Source: a virus. From it: a stretch of DNA of 20,954 nt. This document shows, piece after piece, positions 13,335 to 17,710 of the stretch; position 1 is the first letter of the stretch, and each line of letters begins with the position of its first letter. Location: IMG/VR virus record IMGVR_UViG_3300035224_000005, positions 1 through 20,954 of that record. One strand, written 5' to 3'. The position numbers and the translations under genes were made by a program. The notes under the pieces are model-generated. The model saw nothing but the letters and a program-made list of their open reading frames with translations. It did not search any database and had not been told where the DNA came from.

Positions 13335-13793
13335 GTGGCAGAAATTAAAGAGTATCCGAATCCCTGGATGTATTGTGGGAGCGTCTTTGACGGGTCTCTT
13401 ATTGGGGACAACTATGGTTTTGTTTACAAGATTGCCTGTAGCACCACCAACCGTTCCTACATCGGTAGAAAATACTTCTGGCAAAAACGAAAGCCTAGAG
13501 ATACTGGTCAGACTACAAAACGGCGAAGAGTTACAAGTGAGAGTAACTGGAGAAACTACTATGGAAGTTGTCCAGAACTTAGTGATGATATTAAAAAATA
13601 TGGACGGGAGTCTTTTACTAGAGAAATCCTCTCCTTACACACCACACCAGGACAAGTCAACTACGAGGAGACACGCCAGCTCTTCGTTCATGGTGTTCTG
13701 ACCGAGGCACTTGACAATGGGACGCCTACCTACTATAATAGCAATATCCTCGGTCGTTATTACAGGAAGGATTATTTCACCTATGATTTTTGA
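13335..13793 (+). CDS. SegE-like GIY-YIG endonuclease
   Basis: A 152-residue protein with a GIY-YIG nuclease module: G28-F-V-Y31 (NYGFVYKIACS) for the GIY element and Y42-I-G44 (RSYIGRKYFWQKRK) for the YIG element, followed by ESNWRNYYGSCPELSDDIKKYG, a late Glu (E111) and YYNSNILGRYY. This is the form I associate with SegE-like free-standing endonucleases of T4-like phages; they cut DNA and often promote their own spread or exclude relatives. The only start in this frame is GTG 13335. The full GGAGG at 13315-13319 is 15 bases away, better placed for an ATG at 13327 in another frame, so how this gene is started is unclear. The 3' end overlaps the lysozyme-like gene by 11 bases. Confidence 0.8.
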   Translation: MAEIKEYPNPWMYCGSVFDGSLIGDNYGFVYKIACSTTNRSYIGRKYFWQKRKPRDTGQTTKRRRVTSESNWRNYYGSCPELSDDIKKYGRESFTREILSLHTTPGQVNYEETRQLFVHGVLTEALDNGTPTYYNSNILGRYYRKDYFTYDF

Positions 13794-14358: not shown

Positions 14359-14432
14359 GGGTCAGTAGCTCAGATGGATAGAGCAATTCACTTCTAATGA
14401 ATTGGTCGGGGGTTCGAGTCCCTCCTGACCCG
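14359..14432 (+). tRNA. tRNA-Arg (anticodon UCU)
   Basis: A 74-base cloverleaf. Acceptor GGGTCAG (14359-14365) pairs with CTGACCC (14425-14431), with G as discriminator. The anticodon stem ATTCA/TGAAT encloses CTTCTAA, giving anticodon TCT (14393-14395) for AGA/AGG codons. The T-loop TTCGAGT is standard. CCA is not encoded. AGA is a codon favoured by AT-rich phages more than by many hosts. Confidence 0.93.
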
Positions 14433-14436
14433 CCTT

Positions 14437-14518
14437 GTCGGTATGGCGGAATTGGTAGACGCGCCAGGTTTAGGTTCTGGTGTCTTATGACGTGGAGGTT
14501 CAAGTCCTCTTACCGACA
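14437..14518 (+). tRNA. tRNA-Leu (anticodon UAG)
   Basis: An 82-base class II tRNA. Acceptor GTCGGTA (14437-14443) pairs with TACCGAC (14511-14517), discriminator A. The stem CCAGG/TCTGG encloses TTTAGGT, anticodon TAG. A long variable arm (TGTCTTATGACGT) is present as expected for leucine. It starts four bases after tRNA-Arg ends. CCA is not encoded. Confidence 0.93.
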
Positions 14519-14521
14519 CTC

Positions 14522-14593
14522 GCTCGAATAGCTCAGCGGTAGAGCAGCACCTTTACACGGTGAATGTCGGGGGTTCGATCCCCTCTTCGAGCA
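14522..14593 (+). tRNA. tRNA-Val (anticodon UAC)
   Basis: A 72-base cloverleaf. Acceptor GCTCGAA (14522-14528) pairs with TTCGAGC (14586-14592), discriminator A. The stem GCACC/GGTGA (with the closing pair weak) encloses TTTACAC, anticodon TAC. The T-arm GGGGG/CCCTC with loop TTCGATC is standard. It follows tRNA-Leu by three bases, so the three are probably cut from one transcript. Confidence 0.92.
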
Positions 14594-15090: not shown

Positions 15091-15738
15091 ATGAAAATTT
15101 TTCTAGACACTGCTGACTACGAAGCAATTGCTGAACGCTATGAGACTGGTCTAGTCGATGGTATTACTACAAACCCTACACTAGTTCGTAAGTCTGGTGT
15201 AAACTACCTTGATTTTATCAAGACACTTGCTTCGGAATTTCAGTTTGAAAGTATTTCTGCTGAAGTTGAAGGTGATACTGATGTAGAAATGATTCGTAAT
15301 GCCCAACAATATATTGAGGTTGGAGAAAACGTTACTATCAAACTGCCTCTCACTAAAGATGGGTTATCTGCATGTAAAGTTCTTACTGATGATGGTATTG
15401 AAACTAACGTCACTCTCTGTTTCAGCGCCGCTCAGGCAGTGATGGCAGCGAAGGCAGGTGCCACATACGTTTCTCCATTTGTAGGACGTATGAATGACAA
15501 TTCACTCAGTGGTGTTGAACTTGTTCGTGCTATCTCTGGACTGTATGGTGCTCATGGTGTTCGCACTAAAGTTCTTGCTGCCAGTTTAAGAGATGTCCAC
15601 CATGTCTCGCGTTGCTTCCTCTATGGTGCTAGTGTATGCACATTACCACCTGCTGTGTTCGACAAAATGTATAACCATGTCCTGACCGATTCTGGTTTGG
15701 CAATTTTTGAAAAAGATTTTAAGGAGATCAATGGTTGA
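15091..15738 (+). CDS. talC: transaldolase, TalC type (auxiliary metabolic gene)
   Basis: A 215-residue short-form transaldolase of the TalC/MipB type known from cyanophages. It transfers dihydroxyacetone units between sugar phosphates in the pentose phosphate pathway; during infection it is thought to push host carbon towards NADPH and ribose for phage DNA. The barrel start MKIFLDTADYEAI and GLVDGITTNPTLV are diagnostic. The Schiff-base lysine is K84 in VTIKLPLT. GATYVSPFVGRMND is the conserved strand near the C-terminal half. The length is that of the full family. The end overlaps the antitoxin-like gene by 8 bases; together with nrdAB it belongs to the nucleotide-supply programme. Confidence 0.95.
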   Translation: MKIFLDTADYEAIAERYETGLVDGITTNPTLVRKSGVNYLDFIKTLASEFQFESISAEVEGDTDVEMIRNAQQYIEVGENVTIKLPLTKDGLSACKVLTDDGIETNVTLCFSAAQAVMAAKAGATYVSPFVGRMNDNSLSGVELVRAISGLYGAHGVRTKVLAASLRDVHHVSRCFLYGASVCTLPPAVFDKMYNHVLTDSGLAIFEKDFKEING

Positions 15739-15934
15739 AGTTCCGTTTGCTGAATTTGAAAAAGACTTCGATGCATACATGGATCGCATTGAAGCAGGTG
15801 AATCCTTTATAGTTCGTAAACCAGATGGAACTGCTGTCATGGCAGTCCCTGCTGATGAATATAAAGAACTAACAGATCAGGTTACTGATACTGATTGGGA
15901 AGATATGATGACAACACATGATGATGCTAGTTAA
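15731..15934 (+). CDS. Phd/YefM-like antitoxin-type protein, no toxin partner
   Basis: A 67-residue acidic protein. Residues 2-46 (VPFAEFEKDFDAYMDRIEAG, then SFIVRKPDGTAVMAVPADEYKEL) match the Phd/YefM antitoxin pattern: a helix, a strand ending in xIVRKPDG, a strand AVMAVP, and a final E-Y-x-x-L. The tail is acidic and probably disordered, as in antitoxins that fold on their toxin. AAGGAG at 15721-15726 inside talC marks ATG 15731 as the start (8-base overlap with talC). No toxin-like gene is adjacent: the next gene is a membrane protein. A phage-made antitoxin could neutralise a host toxin, or the protein could act only as a small DNA-binding repressor. Confidence 0.75.
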   Translation: MVEVPFAEFEKDFDAYMDRIEAGESFIVRKPDGTAVMAVPADEYKELTDQVTDTDWEDMMTTHDDAS

Positions 15935-16560: not shown

Positions 16561-16866
16561 ATGAGCGTAAGATCACAAGTCCAAGCTGCTGAAGAAGCAC
16601 TCCGTCAAGCATTGATTAACGCTCTTGCTGAGGGAGATGAAGATTGTTTGTCCGAACTGTTTACTCAGTATCAAGCAGTCAGTAATCTGAATAAAAAAGT
16701 AAATGATATAACTAAATTTGCTTATGATTCAAATTACAATTTCAATCTGTCGTCTGATTATCTCACTCGTCCTGGTGGTGATATGGATGCCTTAGATAAT
16801 GTTATTGATTTTGGTGGCAACATTACTATTGGAAACTCTAGTGATGATACTATCACCTTCAATTAG
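16561..16866 (+). CDS. conserved small phage protein, unknown function
   Basis: A 101-residue protein. The N-terminal half is helical and acidic (SQVQAAEEALRQALINALAE, then GDEDCLSELFTQYQAV), the second half polar and beta-prone with DNVIDFGGNITIGNSSDDTI. The last part resembles low-complexity structural-protein sequence. AAGAGG (about 16550-16555) precedes the ATG. The helical opening looks familiar from other cyanophages, but I know no function. It ends directly before the structured leader at 16864. Confidence 0.7.
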   Translation: MSVRSQVQAAEEALRQALINALAEGDEDCLSELFTQYQAVSNLNKKVNDITKFAYDSNYNFNLSSDYLTRPGGDMDALDNVIDFGGNITIGNSSDDTITFN

Positions 16867-17040
16867 TCTCGGTACGACTATAAAAGAGCCCTGGTGCGGG
16901 TGATGTTATCGCCGCCTGGTTTCTTGCTTCCAGTTAAAAAGCAAGTGGTGGTGCCAAACCCCTTCCGTGTGGCTGTTTTCTTGTTTAGCAGTTAAAATAA
17001 TAAAACAAGTGGCGTGCATGTGCTCGGGGTTGACAACCCC
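16864..17040 (+). ncRNA. structured leader RNA upstream of the 2OG oxygenase (candidate cis-regulator)
   Basis: The 203 bases between 16866 and 17070 hold no gene but many helices. TAGTC/GACTA (16864-16868/16876-16880). GCGG-GTGAT/ATCGCCGC, an 8-bp stem with one bulge and loop GTT (about 16896-16915). CTTGCTT/AAGCAAG (16923-16929/16939-16945). CTTGTTT/AAACAAG (16980-16986/17003-17009), which repeats the previous hairpin with a C-G to T-A exchange in the stem and keeps AGTTAAAA in the loop. GGGGTT/AACCCC (17026-17031/17035-17040). An outer stem GGTTT/AAACC (16918-16922/16956-16960) could enclose the first repeat. AACCCC occurs again at 16957-16962, so GGGGTT has two rival partners. Known cyanophage leader RNAs (such as manA or wcaG motifs) sit in similar places; I cannot say whether this is one. 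Confidence 0.65.
16880..16886 (+). promoter_or_regulatory. possible promoter element ATATAAAAG before the leader RNA
   Basis: CTATAAAAG at about 16878-16886 could be a -10-like or divergent late element for a transcript that begins with the structured leader. No clear -35 box is seen. The call is weak. Confidence 0.25.
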
Positions 17041-17069
17041 AACTCTATAAAACTTTTTATCTTCTATCC

Positions 17070-17621
17070 ATGGCAAAAAATAATGGAATTTATTTAATTC
17101 CATCTGGAATTGACCAATCTGTATCCAATGTCATGCAAAAACAACTTGCTGATTCTTCTCTCGTAGAAGGAAAACTTCAGGATGACGTACTTGATAAACA
17201 AATTCGTAATGTTTCTGTTTCTTGGATTAATACAGATCATTGGATTGCTGGAATGTTAGCACATTTCATTTCTGTTGCAAATAAAGATCATTTCCATTAT
17301 GATTTACATGGGTGGGCTGATAAAATACAGTATAGTGTATACGATGGGAAAGGAACAGGATATAGATGGCATAATGATCATCAAAAATCTACTTACTATA
17401 GTGATATGGTGAGAAAATTGAGTGTTGGTTTGTGTCTAAGCGATGATTATGAAGGAGGAGAATTTCAAATTTATGATCACGACCTTGAACTAAGTACATT
17501 TAAAATGAAATGTGGTGATGTTGTAATTTTTTCTTCGGAAATGATGCATCGTGTGAGACCTATCAAATCTGGATGTAGATTATCATTAGTTGGATGGTAT
17601 GCTGGTCCTAACTACAAATAA
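17070..17621 (+). CDS. 2-oxoglutarate/Fe(II)-dependent oxygenase
   Basis: A 183-residue protein of the prolyl-4-hydroxylase-like 2OG-Fe(II) oxygenase superfamily, common in marine T4-like phages. The iron-binding triad is H101-x-D103 (GYRWHNDHQKS) and H160 (SSEMMHRVRP); R170 (GCRLSLVGWY) would bind 2-oxoglutarate. GLCLSDDYEGGEFQIYD and MKCGDVVIFSS are the usual core strands. All catalytic residues are present. The enzyme hydroxylates an unknown protein, nucleic acid or small molecule; a link to host carbon-nitrogen status through 2-oxoglutarate is possible. Codons are visibly more AT-rich than in neighbouring genes. It follows the structured leader, and a perfect 8-bp hairpin lies at codons 5-12. 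Confidence 0.88.
   Translation: MAKNNGIYLIPSGIDQSVSNVMQKQLADSSLVEGKLQDDVLDKQIRNVSVSWINTDHWIAGMLAHFISVANKDHFHYDLHGWADKIQYSVYDGKGTGYRWHNDHQKSTYYSDMVRKLSVGLCLSDDYEGGEFQIYDHDLELSTFKMKCGDVVIFSSEMMHRVRPIKSGCRLSLVGWYAGPNYK
17083..17103 (+). other. hairpin in the first codons of the 2OG oxygenase
   Basis: ATGGAATT (17083-17090) pairs perfectly with AATTCCAT (17096-17103) around TATTT, 14 bases after the A of the start codon. A stem here could lower or regulate translation initiation together with the leader. Confidence 0.45.
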
Positions 17622-17638: not shown

Positions 17639-17710
17639 GCGGGTGTAGCTCAGTGGTAGAGCGTCAGTTTTCCAAACTGAATGTCGTCGGTTCAAGTCCG
17701 ATCTCCCGCT
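17639..17710 (+). tRNA. tRNA-Gly (anticodon UCC)
   Basis: A 72-base cloverleaf. Acceptor GCGGGTG (17639-17645) pairs with CTCCCGC (17703-17709) apart from one T-T mismatch at the sixth pair; the discriminator is T. The stem TCAGT/ACTGA encloses TTTCCAA, anticodon TCC for GGA/GGG. The T-arm GTCGG/CCGAT with loop TTCAAGT is standard. It stands apart from the 14359-14593 tRNA cluster, between the oxygenase and a structural gene. CCA is not encoded. Confidence 0.9.

Follow-up and report, generated by a model that had tools for sequence, protein, structure and literature searches.

A wcaG-class RNA of tandem pseudoknots as a possible transcript-boundary element behind a conserved cyanophage operon

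The structured stretch that begins at position 16,864 on the plus strand of the window (one complete virus record of 20,954 bases) is almost certainly an RNA of the wcaG class (RF01761), and it is a member of that known family in an extended form, with a longer architecture and a different genetic attachment. The explanation that we favour as a whole, to which we give roughly an even chance (about 0.5), is that this wcaG-class array serves as a transcript-boundary RNA of the operon upstream of it. The wcaG RNA is known from marine samples and T4-like cyanophages and was graded a certain RNA, a probable cis-regulator and a probable riboswitch, its role as a ligand-binding riboswitch having candidate status in the literature (Weinberg et al., 2010; PMC2864571); three later cyanophage papers took over the annotation, as regulator of the next gene.

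Results

A full-length wcaG match in an extended array

An earlier note made from the sequence of this DNA had proposed a leader RNA, named wcaG among the candidate families and asked for an Rfam search; cmscan against Rfam returned RF01761 at 16,862–16,959 with 62.9 bits (gathering cut-off 42), spanning model positions 1–98 of 98. All pairs of the model's third hairpin are canonical in the window and one pair of the second is non-canonical, whereas three of the seven pairs of the first are non-canonical, the module at that place being of another type that makes a different stem (UAGUC/GACUA). Akin to known wcaG RNAs, the window's copy is set in a T4-like cyanophage and carries the same conserved sequence blocks, but it extends past the Rfam model by a knotted module and a 3' hairpin. 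It is followed by an oxygenase gene, where the typical wcaG association (which is no condition of family membership) has an exopolysaccharide or high-light gene, and its attachment is traced below to the operon upstream. Three other structured RNAs of cyanophage genomes, manA, glnA and PhotoRC-II, had no match in the window at gathering score, nor had STAXI, which also gave none within 16,800–17,150 at E up to 10. STAXI likewise strings two or three copies of a pseudoknot together, but it sits with genes for DNA-binding or DNA-handling proteins (PMC2864571). Close DNA matches to the array came from Synechococcus and Prochlorococcus myoviruses (Kyanoviridae records), and a DNA-pattern scan found it also in many IMG/VR contigs; among the 80 matches listed from bacterial genomes scanned with the wcaG pattern, none was a cyanobacterium by title and they were judged to be chance and uninformative.

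The array very probably consists of one A-type module and two H-type pseudoknots with short linkers. Its first three bases are the TAG stop (16,864–16,866) of the upstream gene, phrog_604 (16,561–16,866, plus strand; function unknown). The A-type module (16,864–16,895), which the Rfam alignment places on the first wcaG hairpin, pairs UAGUC (16,864–16,868) with GACUA (16,876–16,880), contains a UAAAA stretch and closes with CUGG (16,891–16,894) followed by U; a second, crossing stem (UCGG/CUGG) is possible there, if unproven. A linker hairpin (16,896–16,915; GCGG-G-UGAU-GUU-AUCG-CCGC) corresponds to the second hairpin of the model and leads into the B pseudoknot (16,916–16,948; CUGG-UUU-CUUGCUU-CCAG-UUAAAA-AGCAAG-UGG), in which CUGG (16,916–16,919) pairs with CCAG (16,930–16,933) and CUUGCUU (16,923–16,929) with AAGCAAG (16,939–16,945), with UUU as L1, an A-rich L3 and UGG after the knot. 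Beyond the linker UGGUGCCAAACCCCUUCCGUGU (16,949–16,970) and outside the Rfam model lies the C pseudoknot (16,971–17,012; GGCUG-UUUU-CUUGUUU-AG-CAGUU-A-rich-AAACAAG-UGG), formed by GGCUG (16,971–16,975) with CAGUU (16,989–16,993) and CUUGUUU (16,980–16,986) with AAACAAG (17,003–17,009), with UUUU as L1 and again UGG behind it. The array ends with CGUGCAUGUGCUC (17,013–17,025), where homologues finish GUGGCGUGCAUG or GUGGCGAGCCUG, and is followed by a 3' hairpin, GGGGUU-GAC-AACCCC (17,026–17,040), whose homologous counterparts are succeeded by a U-run or a tRNA gene. All these elements lie on the plus strand, as do the 2OG-Fe(II) oxygenase gene (PF13640; 17,070–17,621) and tRNA-Gly(TCC) (17,639–17,710) behind them. 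The unpaired bases of the arrays are highly conserved across the homologous loci. A 65-residue minus-strand open reading frame (16,906–17,103) overlaps the array; it is purely mechanical and without support as a gene.

The two tandem hairpins of the earlier note (16,923–16,945 and 16,980–17,009) thus have real stems, and all the sequences it named, including the shared loop AGTTAAAA and the GTGG behind both hairpins, are where it had placed them; the pair is nevertheless better read as H-type pseudoknots.

Comparative support for the pseudoknots

About 200 IMG/VR loci were gathered by DNA pattern, in scans that fixed wcaG sequence and may therefore have missed divergent copies. A descriptor of the fold (a stem, a U-only loop, a second stem crossing the first, and UGG) matched 362 times on the element strand of 217 loci (1.88 Mb), as against 8 times on the other strand and 9 times in Markov-shuffled sequence, so that the structure exceeds chance; since most of these loci came from wcaG patterns, an excess near arrays was expected, and it is the low background that is informative. 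Both pseudoknots of the window are among the matches, and 345 of the 362 sit in arrays, to which the modules are almost confined.

Covariation supports the pseudoknots, and pairing tests across homologues bore out the earlier note's view of a conserved, covarying structured RNA. Where the homologues have their second B pseudoknot (at 16,916 in the window), two-by-two scans of IMG/VR found CTGG/CCAG in more than 100 contigs and CAGG/CCTG in 51, and each of the two mismatched combinations in none; these counts are of contigs rather than independent events, and the CTGG/CCAG pattern was slightly unlike the other three, all of which fix neighbouring bases. In the C pseudoknot, 99.2% of cells were paired and five pairs had changed on both sides (22 distinct sequences, kinship ignored), none of 500 shuffles being as good and sliding controls being half paired or less. 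Permutation tests were used for the first B modules because a MAFFT alignment gaps their pseudoknot strand. The long stem b was paired at 184 of 189 positions (permutation maximum 165, kinship ignored); the crossing stem a was formed in 25 of 50 unique cases with Watson–Crick pairs only (permutation maximum 21 of 50, kinship ignored), but with G–U pairs allowed its 39 of 50 equalled the permutation maximum of 39 and gave no separation, and the case for the crossing stem therefore comes chiefly from the second B module and its two-by-two scans. The A-type stem was fully paired in 98 of 108 anchored cases (permutation mean 49, maximum 62, kinship ignored), in variants that include AGTC/GACT, CGTC/GACG, AGAC/GTCT, CGCC/GGCG and CGTG/CACG. 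Single-sequence folding was weak (z −1.74, with 8 of 200 shuffles as stable), as expected from a program that cannot form pseudoknots; it was dropped as proof of structure, and the signal is comparative.

The alternative folds envisaged in the earlier note did not hold up as well. GGGGTT (17,026–17,031), AACCCC (17,035–17,040 and 16,957–16,962) and GGTTT (16,918–16,922) are present as described, but a linker pairing of at least 5 bp occurs in only 14 of 31 homologues, compared with 29 of 31 for the local 3' hairpin, and a long-range switch between AACCCC (16,957) and GGGGTT (17,026) was rejected as not consistently conserved.

The steady neighbour is the upstream operon

Homologues of the genes found within 2.5 kb upstream (phrog_481, phrog_604, phrog_2318, phrog_552 and a Phd-like antitoxin) were present in 136 of 139 loci and in the window itself, that is, in 137 of the 140 loci with 1.2 kb or more of upstream sequence and a gene called downstream; the window lay outside the BLAST database and was counted through its own phrog_481, phrog_604 and Phd-like genes. 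A further 43 loci, collected separately with another pattern, all had them, which brings the loci where upstream-operon genes stand before the array to 180 of 183. The stop codon of an open reading frame coincided with the start of the A-type module in 26 of 76 cases, against 5 of 72 control positions. Seventeen loci with apparently divergent upstream genes were dropped as evidence on orientation, many of them holding small same-strand reading frames that the simple gene caller skipped.

In L210, L109, L193 and other loci, extra A-type modules stand between small upstream reading frames, as do tRNA-like sequences in some of them, and the A-type modules look as if they also separate genes inside the operon. 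The Phd/YefM-like antitoxin gene of the window's upstream operon lies at 15,707–15,934 (phrog_375; PF02604 just below cut-off). Farther upstream are a tRNA cluster at 14,359–14,593 (Arg(TCT), Leu(TAG) and Val(TAC)), apart from the tRNA-Gly, a phage tail lysozyme domain (PF18013; 13,711–14,334) and a SegE-like GIY-YIG endonuclease, possibly a homing endonuclease (PF19835, E 1.8e-48; 13,335–13,793).

Upstream genes are more conserved beside the array than downstream ones. The first downstream genes fell into 36 clusters and at least 11 gene families, among them epimerases, tail fibres, cytidylyltransferases, outer-membrane-like proteins and several oxygenase families as well as mannose-phosphate isomerase-like and nucleotidyltransferase genes; genes for nucleotide sugars and exopolysaccharide account for much of it (clusters of 53, 16, 6 and 4 of 173), and tRNA genes lie within 300 nt downstream of 53 of 209 arrays. 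The window's oxygenase family was found behind the array at 4 of 217 loci by tblastn and formed a cluster of 5 of 173 when downstream genes were clustered. In the closest phages (S-CAM4, Sf-CH11 and ACG-2014i) tRNA-Gly comes immediately after the array, and no oxygenase separates the two. The oxygenase between array and tRNA-Gly in the window, absent from these relatives, therefore looks like an insertion, the direction of change being our reading of the comparison. These neighbours speak against the earlier note's placing of the RNA as the leader of the oxygenase, and a dedicated metabolite-sensing leader of this gene is very improbable: the two share a strand, about 30 nt separate the 3' hairpin from the ATG with no terminator found between, and the same family stands behind the array in L021, L055 and L181, but nearly all arrays lack this oxygenase behind them and the closest relatives carry the array without it. 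By annotation, S-SCSM2R is an exception to the usual arrangement, with a baseplate protein upstream, then the array, a terminator and an oxygenase; its terminator stands directly before the oxygenase start codon, an attenuator-like layout.

The 3' side of the array

A terminator-like hairpin follows 91 of 134 short arrays (3% of shuffles) and 13 of 39 long ones (10% when shuffled), and such a hairpin, a tRNA or both end the array in 136 of 173 loci. At the short-array loci a sigma-70 promoter may overlap the terminator hairpin: TATAAT stands a few bases past the T-run. This exact hexamer was present after 66 of 91 short-array terminators, against 9 of 91 in the shuffled control, and both promoter hexamers were found in 36 of 134 short arrays; judged from sequence, the putative promoter has a well-supported −10 and a variable −35 element. 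The window's own hairpin (17,026–17,040) lacks an immediate U-run and is a weak terminator at best, and no terminator was found on the plus strand between 16,400 and 17,800.

Discussion

Since the steady neighbour of the array is the upstream operon, we favour a role at the transcript boundary, with read-through attenuation as its main rival; the boundary function taken by itself is a tentative proposal to which we assign somewhat less than even odds. The array begins on the stop codon of the operon's last gene and finishes at the small hairpin; its knots would fold while the RNA emerges, and the 3' end would be produced by termination or tRNA processing. Once folded, it may stabilise the upstream mRNA, or it may tune transcription that passes into the gene behind. 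The window's oxygenase would be expressed by read-through, because no terminator was found before it. Several points weigh against a boundary role. The loci belong to related phages and share one genomic place, so that synteny, and not function, may lie behind the conserved upstream genes, and positional conservation can also come from a common genome region with a variable downstream cassette. The frequent nucleotide-sugar and exopolysaccharide genes downstream fit regulation of the next gene, as does the attenuator-like order in S-SCSM2R. We found no usable cyanophage transcript map covering wcaG in the literature.

The main rival, a cis-regulatory riboswitch or protein-binding attenuator in which a ligand on the tandem pseudoknots sets termination against read-through into exopolysaccharide genes, the oxygenase, hli or tRNA, appears unlikely on balance while deserving serious weight. 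It would account for the S-SCSM2R terminator between array and start codon, the many nucleotide-sugar genes in first downstream position and the high conservation of unpaired bases, and it accords with the riboswitch role proposed for wcaG (Weinberg et al., PMC2864571). It is harder to reconcile with downstream genes so diverse that tRNA genes are among them, with a TATAAT past the short-array terminator that could give the next gene a promoter of its own, and with the better conservation of the upstream genes.

A bolder reading, which we consider improbable, denies wcaG RNAs any role as riboswitch leaders. They would instead be modular 3' elements, built of tandem pseudoknots, that belong to a conserved cyanophage operon and are freed by termination or tRNA processing; as stable RNAs they would shield the transcript or work in trans, for instance by drawing off a host RNA-binding protein as a decoy. 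Less probable still is a stable trans-acting noncoding RNA, released in the same ways, which might, for instance, soak up a host RNA-binding protein or an RNase as a sponge or decoy. The frequent ending of arrays at a terminator or beside a tRNA and the near confinement of modules to arrays are consistent with it, as is the resemblance to type III antitoxin RNAs such as ToxI, in which tandem H-type pseudoknots precede an intrinsic terminator (PMC5086642). Unlike near-identical repeats, however, the array's modules have diverged and are separated by linkers, and the gene behind the window's array encodes a PF13640 oxygenase and no ToxN-like nuclease; Pfam likewise identified no ToxN-type endoribonuclease among eight representatives of the other downstream genes.

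The wcaG RNA has carried the label of a probable riboswitch since 2010, and our data suggest a longer, modular RNA tied to the upstream operon. The reading of wcaG as a switch for the next gene thereby becomes open to experimental test. For phage RNAs that lie beside variable gene cassettes, naming the downstream gene as the target by position alone can mislead.
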